64,000 bases of DNA from Saccharibacillus brassicae. Lineage in GTDB: Bacteria; Bacillota; Bacilli; Paenibacillales; Paenibacillaceae. Below are positions 47,879-61,478 of this stretch, one piece after another. The stretch covers positions 2,031,501-2,095,500 of the forward strand of contig NZ_CP041217.1 in the NCBI RefSeq assembly GCF_006542275.1, read 5' to 3'. The notes under the pieces are model-generated. The model was not told the origin of the DNA, did no database searches, and saw nothing but the letters and a program-made list of their open reading frames with translations. The position numbers and the translations under genes are program-made. The first letter of the stretch is position 1, and every line of letters begins with the position of its first letter.

Positions 47879-48094
47879 CTAATAAGCGGTCTGCTGCAAA
47901 CTGCCTGATTCCGCTTGCGGGCGTTGTGACTTCTGTCGCTGCGCGAGTACAATGTAAGCATCCAACCGCTGGCTTAACTCGACAACATCCCGGTCGCAAA
48001 AGCTTTTATGCTCCGTGATCTTCAGCAGTTCGTGCCTCAAGTACTCGATCATGGTGTACAACGGTTCTTCGCTGCGGTAAGCGTTGTAAGCCAA
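47879..48094 (-). CDS. Spo0E-like aspartyl-phosphate phosphatase family protein
   Basis: About 71 residues. The family core is clear: IEYLRHELLKITEHKSFCDRDVVELSQRLDAYIVLA, containing the SQxLD signature. Spo0E proteins dephosphorylate Spo0A-P and delay sporulation. The start is uncertain: a TTG at 48094 has AAGGTGA five bases before it; the frame is open to 48154 but with no ribosome site; an internal ATG before IEYLRH would give a shorter classic-size protein. The tail RQKSQRPQAESGSLQQTAY is polar. Confidence 0.8.
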   Translation of the reverse strand: MAYNAYRSEEPLYTMIEYLRHELLKITEHKSFCDRDVVELSQRLDAYIVLAQRQKSQRPQAESGSLQQTAY

Positions 48095-53629: not shown

Positions 53630-54016
53630 TTACTCGGCCGTCGTTTCGCCCGGCGCGCCTGTCCGGTAGTTGTTCGTCTCCGCAGCCGGGTCTGCCGTTA
53701 CCGCAGGCTTGCCGCCTTCGAGCTGGGCGACGCGCTGTTCCAGCACGGCGATCCGCTGCTCAAGACTGACCACGTCGCTGCCGGACGGAACGTCCAGTTC
53801 CTGCAGCACGCGGCGAACCTGATCCTGCACCATGTTCTTGATCGTCGAACGTTCTTCTTCTCCGCGCTCGATCAGCTTGTTGACGACCGCTTTCGATTCG
53901 GACGGCGCGATCTCGCCTTTTTTCACCAATTCCTCGACCGTTTTCTCCACTTTTTCCTTGCTTGCTACCGTCAGGCCGATTCCGAGAGACAACGCCTTTT
54001 TAAACAGATCGCTCAT
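53630..54016 (-). CDS. Phasin-like coiled-coil protein upstream of UbiB
   Basis: 128 residues. MSDLFKKALSLGIGLTVASKEKVEKTVEELVKKGEIAPSESK is the PhaF/PhaI-type start; a coiled coil with regular Leu/Val spacing follows (DVVSLEQRIAVLEQRVAQLEGG). Commonly paired with UbiB-like kinases in Bacillota as I recall. A structural partner for UbiB rather than a storage-granule protein is my inference. The ATG at 54016 has GGA before it. Confidence 0.75.
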   Translation of the reverse strand: MSDLFKKALSLGIGLTVASKEKVEKTVEELVKKGEIAPSESKAVVNKLIERGEEERSTIKNMVQDQVRRVLQELDVPSGSDVVSLEQRIAVLEQRVAQLEGGKPAVTADPAAETNNYRTGAPGETTAE

Positions 54017-54086
54017 TGAAAGATTCCTCCGTTTATGAAATGGGATACGTTCGCTTGTCCCCTGCAACCTTCAGGAACGCGAAAGC

Positions 54087-54938
54087 TCAAATCGTGCTTT
54101 CTTCTTCCCCGTCTTCCGCCCGTTGTTCGCCGGAAGCCGCGTAATACTTCGCCAATTCCACCATCATGCTGCCCATCCGCTCTTCTTTGGGCGCGATCAC
54201 GCGCTCGATGCCTTCTTCGCGGATCGACTGGGCCGTCACTTTGCCGACCGCCACCGCCACGACCTCTCGCTCGAACGAAGCCCGCAGCGCTTCTTCTTTG
54301 CCCGCCGCGGCCGCATGAGCGATCAGGAAACGCACCTGCGGACCGCTCGTGAACGTCACGGCGTCCACGCGGCGTTCGAGAATGTCGCCCAGCAGCTGTT
54401 CAAGCTGTTCGTCCGGCGGCGCGATATGCTTGTAAGGCAGCACCGTGCGCACCGAAGCCCCGCGGCTCTCCAGCCAGGAGACGAGATGCGGCGCCGGATC
54501 GCCGTGCAGCTGCACCATCACTTTCGTTCCGGACAAATCGTGTCCTTCCAGCTCGCGAATCAATCCTTCCGTGCTGCCGTCGTCGTCGCGGACGACCGGA
54601 GCGATCCCGCGCTTCTTGAGCGCGTTGACCGTCTTGTACCCGCGGGCCGCGACGTTCGAATGGGCCAAAGCTTCCATAAAAGCTTCCGACACTTCCATCT
54701 CCTGCGCCGTATTGATCAGCGCTTCCAGCCCCATCCCGGTCGTCAGCAGAGACCACTCGGGCTTCAGGCGGATCCATTCCGAGATTCCGCCGCCCAGCTC
54801 CGGTTCGTCCAGAAACACCGTTCCCTGCGCCGGGCGCACGAGCGCCGTTCCGCCCATGTTCTGCACGATTTTGCTCAACTCTTCCGCTTTGCGCGGACCG
54901 GTAATCGCGATCCGTTTTCCTTCCAGTCTTTTCGCCAA
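54087..54938 (-). CDS. Uroporphyrinogen-III synthase family protein (HemD-like)
   Basis: 283 residues from the TTG at 54938, which has GGGAGGGG eight bases before it; an upstream in-frame start has none. Reads MAKRLEGKRIAITGPRKAEEL, a HemD fold opening; DAVTFTSGPQVRFLIAHA is the conserved FTS motif of the second lobe and VAVGKVTAQSIREEGI follows. Closes the linear hydroxymethylbilane to uroporphyrinogen III if active. Not in a hem operon, so it may be a second HemD or serve a siroheme/corrinoid branch. Confidence 0.75.
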   Translation of the reverse strand: MAKRLEGKRIAITGPRKAEELSKIVQNMGGTALVRPAQGTVFLDEPELGGGISEWIRLKPEWSLLTTGMGLEALINTAQEMEVSEAFMEALAHSNVAARGYKTVNALKKRGIAPVVRDDDGSTEGLIRELEGHDLSGTKVMVQLHGDPAPHLVSWLESRGASVRTVLPYKHIAPPDEQLEQLLGDILERRVDAVTFTSGPQVRFLIAHAAAAGKEEALRASFEREVVAVAVGKVTAQSIREEGIERVIAPKEERMGSMMVELAKYYAASGEQRAEDGEEESTI

Positions 54939-55379
54939 CCGATTTGCCCCTCCCTTGTCCTTGTAGAAGGCTTTCCATACGGCCGTGCCGCTTTCCACCT
55001 ATTTTCGCTTCCCCGACGCAAAATTGCAACCGCCCGGACCCAAAACACCCCGAATCCCGAAAAGCGCGTCCTTCCCTTCTCTTTTACCCTTAAAAATACT
55101 TATATTCATGTATGGCCAAAATTACTATCATATCTTCCCTTGGCTTTCCGATATATAATCTAACGCACCATCCAAGTCCGTACACGAGCCGATTTTTTCC
55201 TCTAAATGTAAGAAATGCAGCCAACGAATACGCTCCCGGTTCCATCCATTTTTTGCCTGTGCGAAAGTCGTTGACCTTTATTCATTTTGTCCTGTATATT
55301 GTAAATTACTAGTATTAAAAGAATTATATGAGAAGCCTAGACCCGGAATGGACTCTAGCAGCGTAAGCGAGGTGCAGAC
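54939..55379. other. Gap upstream of the receptor-peptide locus
   Basis: Becomes AT-rich from about 55080. Contains the aloR1 promoter at 55271-55300. No gene seen; a 66-codon frame at 55112 has no ribosome site. Confidence 0.5.
55271..55300 (+). promoter_or_regulatory. Sigma-A type promoter of the first HTH-TPR receptor gene
   Basis: TTGACC at 55271-55276, 18 bases, TATATT at 55295-55300; leader about 70 bases to the ATG at 55380. Confidence 0.65.
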
Positions 55380-56762
55380 ATGGAACTAACGAAAACTCTC
55401 CGTTCGGAAATTGAAAACGGCATCGCCGAACTCGGCATGAACTTTTCCAGTTTCGGCGAACGGTCCGGCATTAACCGCGGCATCTTCAGCGCCATCTTGA
55501 ACGGAACCCCGCCGAAGCCGATTTCCCTGAACCAGATGGAAGCGATCACCCGCGCATTCGGCAAACCGGAAGGCTGGATGTTCGACCTGTATATCGAAGA
55601 ATGCTTCTACGACGGCAAGCCCAACCGGCGACGCGTCGAGCCTTTCCTGATTCGCTGCGCCGAACTCGGACGAACCGACTGCATCCGCGAAGTGCTGTCC
55701 CGCCTGCTTGAAGATCTCAAGCACGTCTCGATGATCTTCGACATCGCGGAGACGCTGTTCACGACGGGCCGCAAACAGGAATCGCTCATTTTCTACGAAT
55801 GCGTGGTGGAGAACGAGAAATACCATCATTCGGAGCGGCTGGCGATCAGCCACTATCGGATTTTCCGGGCGGCGATTGGAGAAGATAACGAGCAGAACCT
55901 TCGTGCGGCGCTTCGTTTTGAATCGTTCTGCGGCAAACTTCCCGATCATCATCGTTTGGACGGTCTGCTTCAGTTGACGAACGTTTATTATTCGCTTGAA
56001 CGTTGGAAAACTGCGGAACATTACGCCGACGAGTTGATCGAATTTTCTGCAACCGTATACGAAAATGAAAATGCAAAACGAAAAAAAAGCAAAAAATACG
56101 AACCGTTGATGACCGATCGACCGCTTGTCAAATATTATGGACAAGGTTACTTAGTCAAAGGCGGCATGCTTGAAGCTCAGGAGCATTACGAAGAAGCACG
56201 AGCCTTTATCGATAAATATGCAGACTTGAGTTGGTTTGAAGGACTCGATTCCGATGGGCAAATCGAAGTCGATAAGTTCAAGCTTTTTGCGAAAGCCAAT
56301 AGACTTAATCTTGAAATACTAATGGGCAATACCGAATATCTTGAGGAATACATGCAATTTTTGGAACAACATCCCCAAGAGATCCTCCCGAGTTTTTTAA
56401 CCATCATAGAATCCGCAAACAAGCATTCCTTCTCCATAGATTTTGTGATCCATCATTTTTCCGCTTATTTAAAAGACGAAGAAGACATACCTAAAATCAA
56501 AGACAGTTATTACAGACAAACGACGATAAATCGAATTCTGCCAAACCTTTTCCACGAACTGTCGATTTATTATGCAAAAAAAGAAAATTACGTGCGCGCG
56601 ATCGATTACTCTTTACAATCATTAAAAAAATCAATTAAAATAAGCAATAAGAATGTGTTCATGAAATGCGTTCCTTTTTTTGAAGAATTTAGAACTTTCG
56701 CAACTCTGGAACAGACGAAAAGATACGAAATTCTCATGAAGGAGATGTATCAAAATGCGTAA
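55380..56762 (+). CDS. HTH-TPR peptide receptor, AloR/RRNPP-like (receptor 1)
   Basis: 460 residues. An XRE-type helix-turn-helix lies at about 18-60 (GMNFSSFGERSGINRGIFSAIL then LNQMEAITRAF), followed by helical, TPR-like repeats to the end (for example HYADELIEFSATVYENE, YYGQGYLVKGGMLEAQEHYEEARAFIDKYA, AIDYSLQSLKKS). This is the layout of RRNPP quorum-sensing receptors. Its stop overlaps by 8 bases the start of a secreted-peptide gene (56755). GAGGTG precedes the ATG. From about 56020 on the DNA is far more AT-rich than the rest of the window, suggesting a mosaic origin. AloR assignment is by architecture and resemblance, not by a search. Confidence 0.8.
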   Translation: MELTKTLRSEIENGIAELGMNFSSFGERSGINRGIFSAILNGTPPKPISLNQMEAITRAFGKPEGWMFDLYIEECFYDGKPNRRRVEPFLIRCAELGRTDCIREVLSRLLEDLKHVSMIFDIAETLFTTGRKQESLIFYECVVENEKYHHSERLAISHYRIFRAAIGEDNEQNLRAALRFESFCGKLPDHHRLDGLLQLTNVYYSLERWKTAEHYADELIEFSATVYENENAKRKKSKKYEPLMTDRPLVKYYGQGYLVKGGMLEAQEHYEEARAFIDKYADLSWFEGLDSDGQIEVDKFKLFAKANRLNLEILMGNTEYLEEYMQFLEQHPQEILPSFLTIIESANKHSFSIDFVIHHFSAYLKDEEDIPKIKDSYYRQTTINRILPNLFHELSIYYAKKENYVRAIDYSLQSLKKSIKISNKNVFMKCVPFFEEFRTFATLEQTKRYEILMKEMYQNA

Positions 56763-56877
56763 ATCGGCTAAAGGCCTGATTTTGGTCATGACTGCTTCTT
56801 TTTTGCTCGTTTCTTCACCGGTTTATTCAACGGTAGATTTTGCTTTCAAACTTCTGGTTAACGGTGTAGGTACCTAA
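56755..56877 (+). CDS. AloP/Phr-like secreted signalling peptide precursor (40 residues)
   Basis: Too short for usual gene calling. AAGGAG at 56739-56744 sits ten bases before the ATG, which overlaps the receptor stop by 8 bases. The product has a basic start (MRKSAKG), a hydrophobic core (LILVMTASFLLVSS), a signal-peptidase-like VYS site near residue 25 and a 15-residue remainder TVDFAFKLLVNGVGT. This is the plan of Phr/AloP precursors: export, cleavage, then re-import of a short C-terminal peptide by oligopeptide permease to bind the receptor. An intrinsic terminator follows immediately. The mature sequence is not known. Confidence 0.78.
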   Translation: MRKSAKGLILVMTASFLLVSSPVYSTVDFAFKLLVNGVGT

Positions 56878-56887
56878 AGTTTGACTT

Positions 56888-56936
56888 AAAAAGAGTACAG
56901 CAGTGCGTTCTCGAACGCGCAGTTGTACTCTTTTTT
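56888..56936 (+). terminator. Intrinsic terminator of the receptor-peptide operon
   Basis: AAAAAGAGTAC (56888-56898) pairs with GTACTCTTTTT (56925-56935); an inner stem GCGTTC/GAACGC tops it. Confidence 0.88.
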
Positions 56937-57161
56937 GTTTGAAATCACTTTTTGAAAGCGATGAATTCACTTAAAAAAACCACCTATTCGAGTACAAAAA
57001 TAAGCGAGCCAAGTCCCTCCTTCCACCTCCCCCCAACCCTACACTTTTCTTTATTTAGTTACTAAGATATTAAAGATATGTCACAAACGTTTCGCTATCG
57101 GGGCTTATAATGAATCGATCTATAGAAGAGTACACGTTTTTCTAGCTTGCAATTCAATTTT

Positions 57162-57190
57162 CCGCCCGACATTCGTCGGGTCGGCTTTTT
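57162..57190 (+). terminator. Attenuator-like terminator in the leader of receptor 2
   Basis: CCG-C-CCGAC, loop ATTC, GTCGG-GT-CGG, then CTTTTT; it ends 25 bases before the receptor 2 ATG and just before its GAGGTG site. With the -10 at 57106 it would stop most transcripts after about 70 bases unless bypassed. Confidence 0.6.
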
Positions 57191-57214
57191 CATATTCCTG
57201 ACCGAGGTGCCTAC

Positions 57215-58549
57215 ATGCAGACTTCCAACCAACTTCGATCGGCCATCAAACAGGATATGCGGGAGTTGGGTTACAACTTCTCCGTTTTGTCGGAAAAATC
57301 CGGAATCTCCCGCGGATCGCTCAGCCTCATTCTCGTGGGCGGAGCGTCGCGTCGCAGTCCGATGGCTTTTCATCATTTGAACCAAATCACTTCGGCGCTC
57401 GGGCTCAAGGAAGAAGCTTACTTCGACCTTTACGTCGACGAATGCTTCTTCGACGGCCGTCCGAGCCGAAGCCGAATCAAGCCGTTCCTGACAAGATGTA
57501 TCGAGCTCGGGCAGGCGGCATGCGTCGAACGGATTCTGGCCCGGCTCGAAGGCGATTCCCGTTATTTGCCGCTCCTGTTTGAAATCGCGGAGCATGGTTT
57601 CAAAAAAGAGGGAACCAAAACTCTCGTCGAACGTCTATTTGAGTATATGCTGCTGCATCAGGACGACCGTCATTCCGTGGAAAAAGCGGTCTGCCATTAC
57701 CGCCTCTTCATGCTCCGGCTCAATCAGGACGAAGAGAACAACTCCCGCCAGCTCAATGCTTTCTCGCCTTACCGCGATAATCTGCCCGACGAACTCAAGA
57801 TGGAATCGCTGCTGATCATGGCTTACCTGTGCTACAACCGCATGGACGCCGAAGAACTGGAGAAGCTGGGCGACGAACTGATCTCGCTCTGCCTCCGGCT
57901 GTTCGGCACGAAAGAAAAGCCCGGAAGACCGTTCCGCCCGGATTCCCCGCTCGGCCGGACGTTCGTCTTTTATTACGGGCAAGGTTATGTCGTCAAGCAG
58001 ATCGCCCTGTGCGAAAAAGGCGAATTCGAGGCCGCCCAATCGTATTCCCGCTTTTACGAAGACTTGAGCTGGCTGGCCGGCAGCGACGCCGAAGCGCAGC
58101 AGGCCGCCCGGGGCATGACGCTGTTCGCGCACGCCAATCAACTGGGCTGCCGGCTGCTCGGCGGAGAGCTCGAAGTGCTGCCCGATTATATCGACATGCT
58201 CGAACTGCATCCCAAAGAAACGGTATCCGGCCTCATCGTTCTGCTCAAGACCGCGAACCGGTTCGGCATCTCGGTCGACGAATGGCTGCCGCGCTTTCCG
58301 CTCGACCTGGAGCAGATGCTGGCAATGCAGGACAACGCCTACTACAGACAGGTATGCCGCAATCGCTTCGCCCGCCTGCTCTACCAGCTCTCGATCTACC
58401 ACTTCGGCCGGGGCCGGTTCGAAGAGTCGCTTCAAGCGGCGCTGCAAAGCTGGGAGCTCTCGAGTCGATTGAACAATCACCGAATGTTCCGGCTGCTCGC
58501 TTCGCTCACGCTCATGTACAGCGGGCAGTCCGAACCGGAGGACCTCTGA
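57215..58549 (+). CDS. HTH-TPR peptide receptor, AloR/RRNPP-like (receptor 2, no peptide seen)
   Basis: 444 residues, same plan as receptor 1: HTH at about 18-62 (GYNFSVLSEKSGISRGSLSLIL), then TPR-like helices. Shared landmarks include DLYVDECFFDGRPSRSRIKPFLTRC, YYGQGYVVKQIALCEKGEFEAAQSY and LSWLAGSDAE. GC content is that of the chromosome, unlike the 3' half of receptor 1. No secreted-peptide frame precedes or follows it; its stop is 10 bases before receptor 3. It may respond to a peptide encoded elsewhere, or to the peptide of receptor 1. GAGGTG seven bases before the ATG. Confidence 0.75.
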   Translation: MQTSNQLRSAIKQDMRELGYNFSVLSEKSGISRGSLSLILVGGASRRSPMAFHHLNQITSALGLKEEAYFDLYVDECFFDGRPSRSRIKPFLTRCIELGQAACVERILARLEGDSRYLPLLFEIAEHGFKKEGTKTLVERLFEYMLLHQDDRHSVEKAVCHYRLFMLRLNQDEENNSRQLNAFSPYRDNLPDELKMESLLIMAYLCYNRMDAEELEKLGDELISLCLRLFGTKEKPGRPFRPDSPLGRTFVFYYGQGYVVKQIALCEKGEFEAAQSYSRFYEDLSWLAGSDAEAQQAARGMTLFAHANQLGCRLLGGELEVLPDYIDMLELHPKETVSGLIVLLKTANRFGISVDEWLPRFPLDLEQMLAMQDNAYYRQVCRNRFARLLYQLSIYHFGRGRFEESLQAALQSWELSSRLNNHRMFRLLASLTLMYSGQSEPEDL

Positions 58550-58559
58550 GAGGTGCATC

Positions 58560-59915
58560 ATGCAAAAATCGTTTGAACTGCGTTCGGCGATCGAAAAAGA
58601 AATGGCGAGTCAAGGCCTTAACTTCTCGACGTTGAGCGAAAAATCGGGCATTAACCGGGGCGTATTCAGCGCAATCCTGAACAGCACGCCGCCGAAGCCC
58701 GTTTCTTTTCACCAACTGGATACGATCACCCGGGCGCTGGGTATGCCGCCGGGCTGGCTGTTCGACGAATATGTCGGGGAATGCTTCTACGGCGGCAAGC
58801 CGAACCGGCGGCGAATCGAGCCTTTTCTGCTGGCCTGCTCGGAATCGGGACGGACCGATCTCGTGCATGAAGTGCTGCGGCGGCTGCTCGAAGATCTCAA
58901 ATACGTGCCGTTCGTGTTCGAAAAAGGCGAAGAACTGTTCATGAACGGTCATTTTATCCAGTCTATCCCGTTCTACGAGAGCGTCATCGAACACGAGAAA
59001 CACCAGCATTCGCTCCGCTTAGCGGTCAGCCAGTACCGGCTGTTTCGCGCCCGGCTCGGCGAAGACGGCGAAGAAAAGCTCAAAGCCGCTGTCCGGTTCG
59101 AACCTTTTTGCGGCCTGCTTCCGATCCGCCTGAGACTCGACGCGCTTCTGCGCCTCGGCAACCTCTATTACGAGCTGGGCAAGTACGCCGAGATGGAAGC
59201 CGCGGCCGACGAGCTGTTCGAAGCCGCTTCCGGGCTGTACGCCGAGCTGCGCTCCGGCAAGGCGAAGCCGCAGGAAGACGAACCGCCGGTCCGGCCGGTC
59301 AAATCGCTCGTGTTCTATTACGGCAGCGGTCTCCTGCATAAGCAGTTGGCGCTGATCGGGCAGAAGCGCTACGAAGAAGCGCGGCCGTACGGCGAACGCT
59401 ACGGCAATCTGGACGGCTTCGAAGGGTTGGACGACGACGGACGGGCGGAAGTCGAAAATTTCAAGGTGTTCGCGCTCGGCAACATGCTCGATCTGGAGCT
59501 GACGCTCGGCAATTTGTCCGTTCTGCCGGCTTATTCCGCCTACATGCAGCGCCATCCGAACGAAACGGTGAGCGGCCTGGTCAACATCGTCGAAGCGGCG
59601 AACCGTTACGACGCGGACGTCGACCGCCTGCTTGAAGACCATTACGTGCCGCTGGATCGTTACATGGCGCAGAGACCCGATAATTATTATCCGGAACCGA
59701 TCGTACGCAGCAGCTTTGCCAGTCTGCACTTCCATCTGGCCGTCTACCATAACCGACGCGGCCGATGCGCCCAGGCTGCGGAGCATGTGCGGCACTGCTG
59801 GCAGCTGTCGCAGGAATTGAACAATCCGCAGCATTTCCGGCAGCTCGCTTCGCTGCTGTCGCTGCCGCCGATGTTCGTGCCGCTCGTTCCCGAGACGGCC
59901 GGCGAAGCCGAATAG
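58560..59915 (+). CDS. HTH-TPR peptide receptor, AloR/RRNPP-like (receptor 3, no peptide seen)
   Basis: 451 residues. N-terminal HTH nearly matches receptor 1 (GLNFSTLSEKSGINRGVFSAILNSTPPKP; receptor 1 has FSAILNGTPPKP). Shared ECFYGGKPNRRRIEPFLL, RRLLEDLKYV and the TPR-like core YYGSGLLHKQLALIGQKRYEEARPY. Co-transcribed with receptor 2 (10-base gap, GAGGTG site). No peptide gene lies between it and the hairpin at 59935. The near-identical HTH suggests receptors 1 and 3 could read similar operators. Confidence 0.75.
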   Translation: MQKSFELRSAIEKEMASQGLNFSTLSEKSGINRGVFSAILNSTPPKPVSFHQLDTITRALGMPPGWLFDEYVGECFYGGKPNRRRIEPFLLACSESGRTDLVHEVLRRLLEDLKYVPFVFEKGEELFMNGHFIQSIPFYESVIEHEKHQHSLRLAVSQYRLFRARLGEDGEEKLKAAVRFEPFCGLLPIRLRLDALLRLGNLYYELGKYAEMEAAADELFEAASGLYAELRSGKAKPQEDEPPVRPVKSLVFYYGSGLLHKQLALIGQKRYEEARPYGERYGNLDGFEGLDDDGRAEVENFKVFALGNMLDLELTLGNLSVLPAYSAYMQRHPNETVSGLVNIVEAANRYDADVDRLLEDHYVPLDRYMAQRPDNYYPEPIVRSSFASLHFHLAVYHNRRGRCAQAAEHVRHCWQLSQELNNPQHFRQLASLLSLPPMFVPLVPETAGEAE

Positions 59916-59934
59916 CCCGGAACGCCGCGGCCCA

Positions 59935-59988
59935 AACGAACAAGCGCCGCGGAGCAGGGAGATCCCCGTTCCGCGGCGCTTGTTCGTT
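59935..59988. terminator. Perfect 19-bp hairpin between convergent genes
   Basis: AACGAACAAGCGCCGCGGA (59935-59953) and its exact complement (59970-59988). No strong T-run, but the position between the receptor 3 stop and the stop of the gene at 60027 fits a bidirectional terminator. Confidence 0.7.
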
Positions 59989-60026
59989 ATCGGTGTGCGC
60001 GAACGAACTTCGCGCGCGGCAAGGCT

Positions 60027-61478
60027 TTATTCCGCCGAACCGGTCTTGATCCGGATCTCTTTGAGATACGGCTGCGGCTCCGTCACTTCGAGCGACTGCG
60101 CGAACGCGTCGGCAGCCGGCTCGACCGCGACCATCATGCTGCCGCTCAGGTTCTGCATCTCGTAGCCGAGATCGACCGTCTGCGCATCGGCTTCGTCCCC
60201 GCCGCGCTGCACGGTCATCTGCGAGCTGCCTTTGGTCAGCGTCGCGACGACGTCGCCTTTGCGCAGCTTGACGACGCTCGTGCCGTCGAAGCCGAATTCG
60301 GCGCCCAATGCGGCCGCCAGCTCTTTGATCGGCACGAGAATATGGCCTTCGCGCACCTGGGCCGGCACGCTGAATTCCACTTCCTTGTCGTCGACGTAGA
60401 CGAACAGGCTGAACGCTCCGCTGTCCATATCGACCGCCAGATGCGAGAGCTGGCTCTCCAGCTCTTCGTTGAACTTGTCCACGTTGTCCGCGGTCACCAA
60501 ATTTTTGCCTTCCGCGATTTCGCGCACAATCCGTTCGTTGATCGCCTGGCTGTGGTGGGACAAGTCTTTATACTGGCCCAGATCGTACGTGATCGACGAA
60601 TCTTCCTGAAAATCGTACACGCTGACGTTCGAATGCTTGCTGAACTGTTCGAACATATACTTTTTCATCGCGTATTGGTTTTCCGCCCGGACCGGATTCG
60701 TCTCCGCCCACACCTGCTGACGCAAAATGGTGTACGGCGGGTAGTAGAACGTGAATTCCACTTCCGGATGTTCTTCGATCAGGCTCAGCACGTATTTGTT
60801 GAACACGGCTTCCACGTTTTCGAGCGAAAATTCGTTTTTGCCGTAGCCGGCTTCCTTGATTCGGGCTTTCTCCCATGTGTCGAGCACGGCCGCCTGGCTG
60901 TACTTGGCCGATTTGTCCCAGTTGCGCAGCAGATCCAGATTGCGGAACGCTTTGGACTCTTCTTCCGGCGTCGTCAATGCTCTCCACGCATGCTTGACGT
61001 TCGAGATATTGAACAAATATTCGTAATCGTTGAACGGATTGTTGTCGTACATGTACATCGGCATATTCTCCGACTCCGCCCCGACATCCTGGCGCATCGC
61101 GAAGTAATCGAGGCCCCAGAGAACGCGCTTGACCTTGCCGGTATCCAGCGCGGTCCGTCCGACGGCGCTTTGTTCCATCGCCGTCGAACCTTCGATCGAC
61201 AGCTTCATCACTTGGCCGCCCAGCACGCTCTCGACGTACGACGGCACGAAGTTCTGGGTCATCGAACTGCCGAGAATGATCGTATCGTAATCGTAGCTGC
61301 GGGCGAGCCCCGCGTTCTGGTAACGCTCCTGCGACGAATACAGCGGCGGGTACAACGACGACTTGCGGTACATTTGCAGCGGGTCGACGACATACATGAA
61401 CGAACCGACCAGCAGCGCGAACACGAGCACGCTGGCGGTAAATTTAAGCAAAAACTTGCGATAACCTTTGTTATCCAT
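60027..61478 (-). CDS. Membrane-anchored SGNH/DHHW-like protein with copper-amine-oxidase-N-type domain
   Basis: 483 residues. One N-terminal membrane helix (about 10-30), then an extracytoplasmic domain with DTIILGSSMTQNF (SGNH block-I-like Ser), DYFAMR, and a DLSHHSQAINERIV segment as in AlgX/DltD-like partners. The C-terminal 130 residues (VDDKEVEFSVPAQVREGHILVPIKELAAALGAEF) are the stalk domain often called copper amine oxidase N-like, usual in Paenibacillus surface proteins. Lies 32 bases after an MBOAT acyltransferase; together they probably O-acylate a cell-surface polymer. Confidence 0.75.
   Translation of the reverse strand: MDNKGYRKFLLKFTASVLVFALLVGSFMYVVDPLQMYRKSSLYPPLYSSQERYQNAGLARSYDYDTIILGSSMTQNFVPSYVESVLGGQVMKLSIEGSTAMEQSAVGRTALDTGKVKRVLWGLDYFAMRQDVGAESENMPMYMYDNNPFNDYEYLFNISNVKHAWRALTTPEEESKAFRNLDLLRNWDKSAKYSQAAVLDTWEKARIKEAGYGKNEFSLENVEAVFNKYVLSLIEEHPEVEFTFYYPPYTILRQQVWAETNPVRAENQYAMKKYMFEQFSKHSNVSVYDFQEDSSITYDLGQYKDLSHHSQAINERIVREIAEGKNLVTADNVDKFNEELESQLSHLAVDMDSGAFSLFVYVDDKEVEFSVPAQVREGHILVPIKELAAALGAEFGFDGTSVVKLRKGDVVATLTKGSSQMTVQRGGDEADAQTVDLGYEMQNLSGSMMVAVEPAADAFAQSLEVTEPQPYLKEIRIKTGSAE

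Follow-up and report, generated by a model that had tools for sequence, protein, structure and literature searches.

The gene pair aloR1-aloP1 of Saccharibacillus brassicae is almost certainly an AloR-AloP receptor-peptide pair, and between close strains the sensing half of such a receptor and the peptide gene behind it differ together as one block. The pair lies in a window of 64 kb that was analysed as a whole (G000:C1:2031501-2095500, in a genome of 5.62 Mb) and to which all position numbers refer. A first-pass annotation had read the receptor and the 40-residue frame at its end as a complete signalling cassette; it missed that aloR1 is the first of three tandem receptors (R1, R2 and R3) and that the genome has, at another site, a fourth receptor accompanied by a 54-aa small ORF. 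The locus comprises the following features:

55271-55300, plus strand: predicted sigma-A-type promoter of aloR1, with TTGACC at 55271-55276, an 18-nt spacer and TATATT at 55295-55300 (by-eye comparison of the regions upstream of ten R1 orthologues)
55293-55308, plus strand: candidate AloR operator TGTATATTGTAAATTA, lying over and past the aloR1 -10 (genome-wide 16-mer count)
55380-56762, plus strand: aloR1 (R1), HTH and TPR-like intracellular peptide receptor, 460 aa, ATG start (ORF, profiles, tree, predicted structure)
56739-56744, plus strand: Shine-Dalgarno sequence AAGGAG of aloP1, inside aloR1 and 10 nt before the aloP1 ATG (sequence)
56755-56877, plus strand: aloP1, 40-aa pro-peptide, ATG start (ORF, conservation, codon changes)
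56755-56762, plus strand: aloR1/aloP1 overlap, 8 nt (ORF coordinates)
56888-56935, plus strand: intrinsic terminator after aloR1-aloP1, 23-nt arms, 87% complementary, T-run at its end (inverted repeat)
57065-57111, plus strand: conserved promoter of the R2-R3 operon, with AGATATTAAAGATATG at 57065-57080, GTTTCGCTATCGGGG at 57089-57103 and TATAAT at 57106-57111 (by-eye alignment before R2)
57215-58549, plus strand: R2, AloR-like receptor without a peptide gene (ORF, tree, predicted structure)
58560-59915, plus strand: R3, AloR-like receptor without a peptide gene, 10 nt behind R2 (ORF, tree)
59935-59988, no strand assigned: terminator-type inverted repeat after R3, 26-nt arms, 92% complementary (inverted repeat)

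The 8-base overlap of the receptor stop with the 40-residue frame, the frame's own AAGGAG site and the terminator behind it had all been claimed from the letters alone, and all three were found, with both ORFs present. Six of the eight flanking ORFs scanned match Pfam families (hemD, phasin-like, ABC1 kinase, copper amine oxidase N-domain, MBOAT and APH-type) and none of these six is a phage gene; Rfam gave no match at gathering scores over window positions 54000-61000.

We regard it as highly probable, taking the explanation as a whole, that the two genes are an AloR-AloP pair with an exported peptide, bound by the TPR half of the receptor, and a specificity that resides in the cassette. Given the overlap and the terminator, aloP1 would be translated from the aloR1 message; AloP1 would leave the cell through its N-terminal signal and, following the precedent of SHGRGG, be trimmed outside to about six residues, VNGVGT. 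The peptide would then be re-imported and bound by the TPR half of AloR1, altering the action of the HTH half at DNA, and its likely first target is the aloR1-aloP1 promoter, where the -10 overlaps the 16-mer. Specificity would be carried by the TPR half and aloP, which differ between close strains as a unit, presumably through exchange, while R2 and R3 stand beside the pair as conserved receptors without a peptide gene.

The small frame aloP1

The 40-aa frame next to the receptor is a confirmed observation. A small ORF sits at the identical 8-nt overlap in all ten R1 orthologues (our own genome, G001, G004, G005, G007 and G010-G014), so that the frame, whose conservation the first-pass annotation had named as decisive, is indeed kept, and the secretion-type start that it proposed recurs as a basic and hydrophobic N-terminus in every one of the ten. 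When small ORFs after homologous receptors were listed, as had been suggested, a signal-like one stood at the receptor end in each of the 23 loci examined (receptor identity 47% or more); in the wider receptor set, tandem peptide-less receptors included, 30 of 103 had a small ORF with a Shine-Dalgarno-like site. A strict rule asked for an ATG, a Shine-Dalgarno-like site, a length of 25-80 aa, 11 consecutive residues with a mean hydropathy of at least 2.4 and at least two basic residues ahead of them; its thresholds were chosen after aloP1 had been seen. Over both strands of the 64 kb only the aloP1 start satisfies this rule, and such an ORF stands at one of 40 gene ends, the 40 'genes' having been picked by length and including some wrong-strand ORFs. 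Conservation in the ten orthologues is the more independent test of aloP1.

Judged from basic residues and hydropathy, residues 1-25 of AloP1 would be the signal sequence and TVDFAFKLLVNGVGT the secreted part. Cleavage sites were placed by eye and by analogy with AloP13 SHGRGG (available text of PMC7425212), which gives a predicted mature tail of about VNGVGT, and the mature signal probably lies within the last 5-8 residues. Across the ten orthologues the AloP tails read VNGVGT, VNGIGT, GHGMGS (twice), IHGDVS, SGAGDS, NGAGDS and SNGSGG (three times); [NHS]GxG is present in nine, the exception being IHGDVS, and the tail of G007 has no GxG core. Synonymous changes in the last six codons outnumber amino-acid changes within most tail groups, on small counts: 3 synonymous against 1 non-synonymous between the window and G001, 4 against 1 between G014 and G011, and 3 to 0, 3 to 0 and 4 to 0 in pairs of the SNGSGG group, with G004 and G010 identical; in two pairs of tail group B that involve G007, amino-acid change exceeds synonymous change (5.8 against 1.2). 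As a separate observation, the SNGSGG-type AloP of G005, G012 and G013 (L011, L012 and L013) contains NGSGG twice and the AloP of L072 contains GHGNG twice, which may be tandem pheromone copies in one pro-peptide.

The frame could also encode a small secreted or membrane peptide with another job, such as a hydrophobic toxin or a bacteriocin, which the receptor controls without having it as its ligand. A short, hydrophobic product with a basic N-terminus and a terminator right behind it would suit such a peptide, and yet most tail groups conserve the final six residues, the frame differs together with the TPR half of the receptor, and searches of Pfam, PHROG and NCBIfam gave the protein no match up to E = 1 (of little weight for a protein so short); we think this reading very improbable. 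That the frame is a non-functional or chance ORF is hardly credible at all: it is short, and the overlap with the receptor could dictate a little of its sequence, but against this stand its presence in ten of ten orthologues, its position as the only such start in 64 kb under the strict rule set afterwards, and the synonymous bias of its tail codons. That the small frame goes with the TPR half is best supported, whatever the process behind it, by the fact that the two differ as one block.

AloR1 and its relation to known systems

The description of AloR1 as an HTH and TPR-like receptor is borne out by a confident predicted structure (pLDDT 91.3, pTM 0.86), in which HTH-type helices are followed by an all-helical array, with Pfam hits below cut-off (HTH_26 at 16.6 bits versus 22, TPR_10 at 22.9 versus 27.5) and a SinR-type HTH assigned to the N-terminus by profile search. 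According to the available text of PMC7425212, 14 of the 16 Alo receptors of Voichek et al. likewise went unrecognised initially, mostly with divergent TPR domains below the default threshold. Among the 50 PDB matches listed by fold comparison, none exceeded TM 0.50 and most were generic TPR superhelices; Rap of phage phi3T, solved with its pheromone, was among the 50 at E 0.017. One viral model, S5MC02, reached TM 0.64-0.68. PHROGs and NCBIfam gave no decisive match for the receptors, and RNPP_C (PF18768) had no match in our own genome, a weak test in that the same search in 14 control genomes matched one, and none over cut-off.

The Alo-like reading gains from several sides: R1 is 47% identical to a receptor of the polymyxa-like genome G285 whose adjoining pro-peptide ends in SHGRGG, small ORFs accompany 23 of 23 loci, and the TPR half and the frame change together. 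Gene order in G285 is receptor, pro-peptide ending in VFSHGRGG, Spo0E-like gene and peptide-less receptor; SHGRGG is the published mature AloP13 peptide and this order the published Alo13-Alo14 layout (available text of PMC7425212). A tree of 125 rows (midpoint root, SH-aLRT support only) places R1 in a branch of 103 rows with Alo13/14-type receptors (support 97), separate from a branch of 18 rows with other polymyxa-like Alo receptors. Broken or duplicate receptors and ORFs below 330 aa or 380 aa (in two steps) were excluded before the counts, and the tree lacks some of the receptor matches because receptors below 400 aa, among others, were left out. Sequence comparison thus supports a place for aloR1-aloP1 in the Alo13/14-type branch, with an Alo13-type locus as its closest characterised relative.

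All seven named relatives of R1 returned by the scan are Saccharibacillus proteins, S. alkalitolerans being closest at 84%, and receptor matches occur in 16 of 16 Saccharibacillus genomes; the host belongs to the Paenibacillaceae, as for AloR-AloP. AloR-like proteins are also found on plasmids (36 records) and in two Brevibacillus phages; that of phage SecTim467 (KT151957.1, 67456-68808) covers all of R1 at 35% identity.

With Alo13-Alo14 of Paenibacillus polymyxa (PMC7425212, available text) the locus has in common an HTH and TPR receptor with an overlapping small pro-peptide gene, tails with an HG or NG-x-G core, GTATATTGTAA in the promoters, and peptide-less receptors within one locus. It differs in its tail (VNGVGT against SHGRGG), in its overlap (8 nt against 50 nt) and in its two peptide-less receptors, which share an operon under a conserved promoter of their own. 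AloP1, at 40 aa, fits the P. polymyxa pro-peptides, which have 32-50 aa and lie right behind the receptor. A Spo0E-like gene, which adjoins Alo13-Alo14 and six P. polymyxa Alo systems in all and is thus common rather than defining, is absent beside aloR1-aloP1: the genome has three Spo0E-like matches, none at the Alo locus. The nearest (PF09388, 39.3 bits) lies at window positions 47936-48055 on the minus strand, about 7 kb from the array and not adjacent to it. The second Alo pair of the genome (L002, G000:C1:369290-370624) comprises a receptor 53% identical to R1 and the 54-aa small ORF with a signal-type start, and has the same 16-mer promoter element and third-helix sequence as R1; it differs in its tail, HGPGIGEW, which ends in W, and in a one-base overlap with its receptor.

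Rap-Phr, NprR-NprX and PlcR-PapR follow the general RRNPP plan proposed here for aloR1-aloP1, in which an intracellular TPR receptor binds a peptide that is exported and re-imported (available text of PMC7425212, and in part general knowledge). Membership in Rap-Phr, with its phosphatase-type receptor and no DNA-binding domain, was rejected on the HTH of R1. To our knowledge, Rap proteins have no HTH. AimR-AimP, the arbitrium system of Bacillus phages, has the same receptor-peptide layout, and a structural phylogeny puts AloR and AimR in one clan (PMC12700828, available text); it is a phage-borne lysis-lysogeny module, whereas aloR1-aloP1 is chromosomal, by hemD and other non-phage genes. Membership in AimR-AimP was rejected since no phage gene was found among the Pfam-matching neighbours, and AimR is absent among the 13 matches of the PDB profile search.

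The peptide had been called undescribed. For AloP1 itself this stands within the literature searched, but Saccharibacillus was already among the carriers of AloR-like receptors named in 2020 (available text of PMC7425212). The pair adds to Alo systems already known and gives a concrete predicted signal and receptor in a genus without a described Alo peptide in the literature searched.

Promoter elements and candidate operators

The 5.6 Mb genome holds two exact copies of the 16-mer TGTATATTGTAAATTA, each at an aloR promoter, and two more places match it with two mismatches (one in the reversed control). Sorting 72 Saccharibacillus receptors (L050-L069) by signal ORF gives 17 with an ORF and a Shine-Dalgarno-like site, 8 with a candidate ORF that lacks the site and 47 with no such ORF; because two candidates without a site (L066 and L067) were accepted as real, 19 receptors count as peptide-coupled and 53 as uncoupled. 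Within 260 nt upstream, TTGTAAATTA is found at 12 of the 19 coupled receptors versus none of the 53 uncoupled ones, the seven coupled receptors without it being six with another conserved block and L069. Polymyxa-like Alo13-type promoters have GTATATTGTAATTG or GTATATTGTAATTGTT-type variants of TTGTAAATTA. A looser 13-mer with at most one mismatch matches eight places (three in the reversed control); of the six outside alo, L123 and L127 fall within long ORFs and at least three (L122, L124, L126) are intergenic. A wider regulon of 13-mer-type sites is conceivable.

The third-helix sequence GINRGIFSAILN is common to R1 and the fourth receptor, R3 has GINRGVFSAILN, and R2 differs. We lean towards autoregulation of AloR1 through the 16-mer, with cross-talk at this site by the fourth receptor and R3 possible, whereas R2 would read a different DNA site. 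The core of the R2 promoter, [AC]TATTAAA[GCT]A, lies upstream of 10 of 10 R2 genes and 3 of 43 other uncoupled receptors; a 14-mer core is found exactly once in the genome and with one mismatch at two places, both inside ORFs (control 1). The promoter elements of R1 and R2 were tried as one motif, but the comparison gives no support for this, and we therefore consider it doubtful that R2-R3 is a direct target of AloR1.

Two further elements recur near these promoters. A leader after the promoter, TTACTGGGGCGCAACAA ... GGGGTGTGTTCGG, is very similar in six genomes (L014-L019), and a second TATAAT-type element, GATATATAAT (window 55150-55159, some 220 nt upstream of aloR1), has counterparts, with changes, about as far upstream of the R1 orthologues in a by-eye comparison.

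Divergent blocks and peptide-less receptors

Sliding identity profiles place aloP within the same divergent block as the TPR half. G005 and G011, compared per 100 nt, are 84-100% identical upstream and to nt 500 of aloR1, 39-70% over nt 500-1700 and 58-80% through most of the next receptor ('b'), then 84-99% over the rest of the alignment from 2900 (leaving out the final 100 nt, in which the G011 sequence runs out), so that the downstream edge is near the end of 'b' and this orphan lies inside the block. G002 and G003, per 30 nt, are 90-100% identical to nt 510, 27-77% over the TPR half and aloP and 87-100% from +1590, the wider flanks being at 78-94% downstream and mostly 55-98% upstream, where orphan receptors lie. 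The polymyxa-like genomes G268 and G285 are 90-100% identical to nt 300, 77-87% to nt 480 and 23-80% thereafter, returning to 97-100% from +1500 (the two final windows, which extend beyond the shorter sequence, are excluded). The blocks begin around nt 450-510 of aloR and end 50-110 nt behind aloP or, in G005/G011, close to where the next receptor ends; their borders are sharp on a scale of tens of bases. There are at least three separate cases of block divergence: G003, G005 versus G011, and the polymyxa-like set.

The 21 peptide-coupled receptors give 210 pairs, of which 11 reach an N-half identity of 0.88 and were kept; the borders between the halves (codons 150 and 165 or 175) were placed after the sliding profiles had been seen. 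Because they share genomes, the 11 pairs are not independent. Seven pairs with different tails have a DNA-binding half 88-95% identical and a TPR half at 49-62% (C/N ratio 0.55-0.69), whereas four pairs with equal or similar tails show no such drop, with a TPR half at 84-96%: the C/N ratio is 0.97-1.00 in three pairs with identical last six residues and 0.92 in one pair with similar tails (GHGIGG and GHGTGA). Pairs cannot be ordered by how many of their tail residues match, as 4 of 6 occurs with and without a fall in the C-half. Synonymous differences per site (pS) rise from N-half to C-half where tails differ (G002/G003 0.20 to 0.68, G003/G015 0.21 to 0.64, G005/G011 0.22 to 0.74) and are 0.02/0.14, 0.22/0.17 and 0.28/0.20 in the identical-tail pairs; in nine polymyxa-like different-tail pairs the contrast is weaker, with a rise from 0.41-0.61 to 0.70-0.81. 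The clean case is G005/G011, because R2 and R3 give a background dS of 0.20-0.22. In G002/G003 the pS of the four orphans spans 0.37-0.71, with a rise from 0.40 to 0.70 in one as well, and the C-half value of 0.68 therefore does not exceed background there; what stands out is a C-half pN of 0.37 versus 0.05-0.11 in the orphans' C-halves, and the low N-half pS of 0.20. Nor are C-half falls confined to peptide-coupled receptors, since 7 of 18 close orphan pairs (N-half identity below 0.85 excluded) also have a C/N ratio below 0.75, some of these seven being paralogue comparisons.

R2 and R3 form clades of 10 rows each in the 125-row tree, and neither has an accepted peptide gene in any of its ten genomes; a single weak candidate, at R3 of G013, lacks a Shine-Dalgarno-like site. 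They are 9-10 nt apart in nine genomes and overlap by 17 nt in G014, with guessed starts. With dN/dS at 0.07-0.25 in six R2 pairs and at 0.09-0.16 in five R3 pairs (a sixth having saturated dS), and dS high in several pairs of each, both look to be under purifying selection, and the predicted fold of R2 has a pLDDT of 89.3. N307, N347 and N423 are common to R1, R2 and R3; asparagines of this kind touch the peptide in RRNPP receptors.

Two alternatives bear on these patterns. The blocks could have arisen without any allelic exchange, the TPR half evolving rapidly in place and the DNA-binding half perhaps having been homogenised recently. TPR halves do generally evolve faster (R1 N-half dN 0.04-0.05 versus C-half 0.13-0.21, window against G001, G004 and G007), and the high synonymous background of the G002/G003 orphans, with C-half pS in their range and N-half pS unusually low, takes weight from the cassette reading and adds it to in-place evolution. 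This explanation is nevertheless unlikely, given a pS that jumps from 0.22 to 0.74 inside one gene in G005/G011 where R2/R3 dS is 0.20-0.22, edges sharp to tens of bases, and equal-tail pairs without a comparable jump. R2 and R3, for their part, could be further receptors of AloP1, one signal thus fanning out to three receptors; the lack of an accepted peptide gene in 10 of 10 genomes each, the signs of purifying selection, the confident fold of R2 and the common asparagines would agree with this. In G005/G011, however, AloP tails and R1 TPR halves differ and the C-halves of R2 and R3 do not fall (identity 0.92 and 0.94), so their pockets do not track the AloP1 type; the counterpoint is that one orphan, 'b', does sit in a divergent block. 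We take a fan-out to be rather unlikely, though less so than in-place evolution, and think it more likely that R2 and R3 sense something else or a shared core.

The reading that we prefer is that the sensing half has been replaced together with aloP, and the divergent blocks in Saccharibacillus and polymyxa-like genomes suggest a cassette-type pherotype switching. More tentatively, and a little short of what we would call an even case, Alo13-type loci may be modular, with a fixed DNA-binding half and operator, exchangeable cassettes of sensing half and signal, and peptide-less receptors (R2-R3) that hear signals other than the strain's own; an Alo array would then serve both as an exchangeable address and as a bank of permanent receivers. 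Other systems are already known to show pherotype polymorphism. The cassette-type pattern is what is new for Alo within the literature searched: the available main text of PMC7425212 does not contain 'pherotype', 'polymorphi-' or 'specificity', and no description of cassette exchange in Alo loci was found in the available text of PMC7425212, PMC10075063, PMC9765709, PMC12700828 and PMC13220807, a search with most subscription journals and all supplements outside its scope. The divergent blocks provide natural receptor-peptide pairs with the DNA-binding half in common and the sensing half different, which makes it testable which TPR residues read which tail, and what role conserved peptide-less receptors have in Alo arrays. 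Some peptide-less array receptors of G008 and G009 (L058/L059) show a TPR-half divergence of their own, the AloP tail being the same in both genomes.
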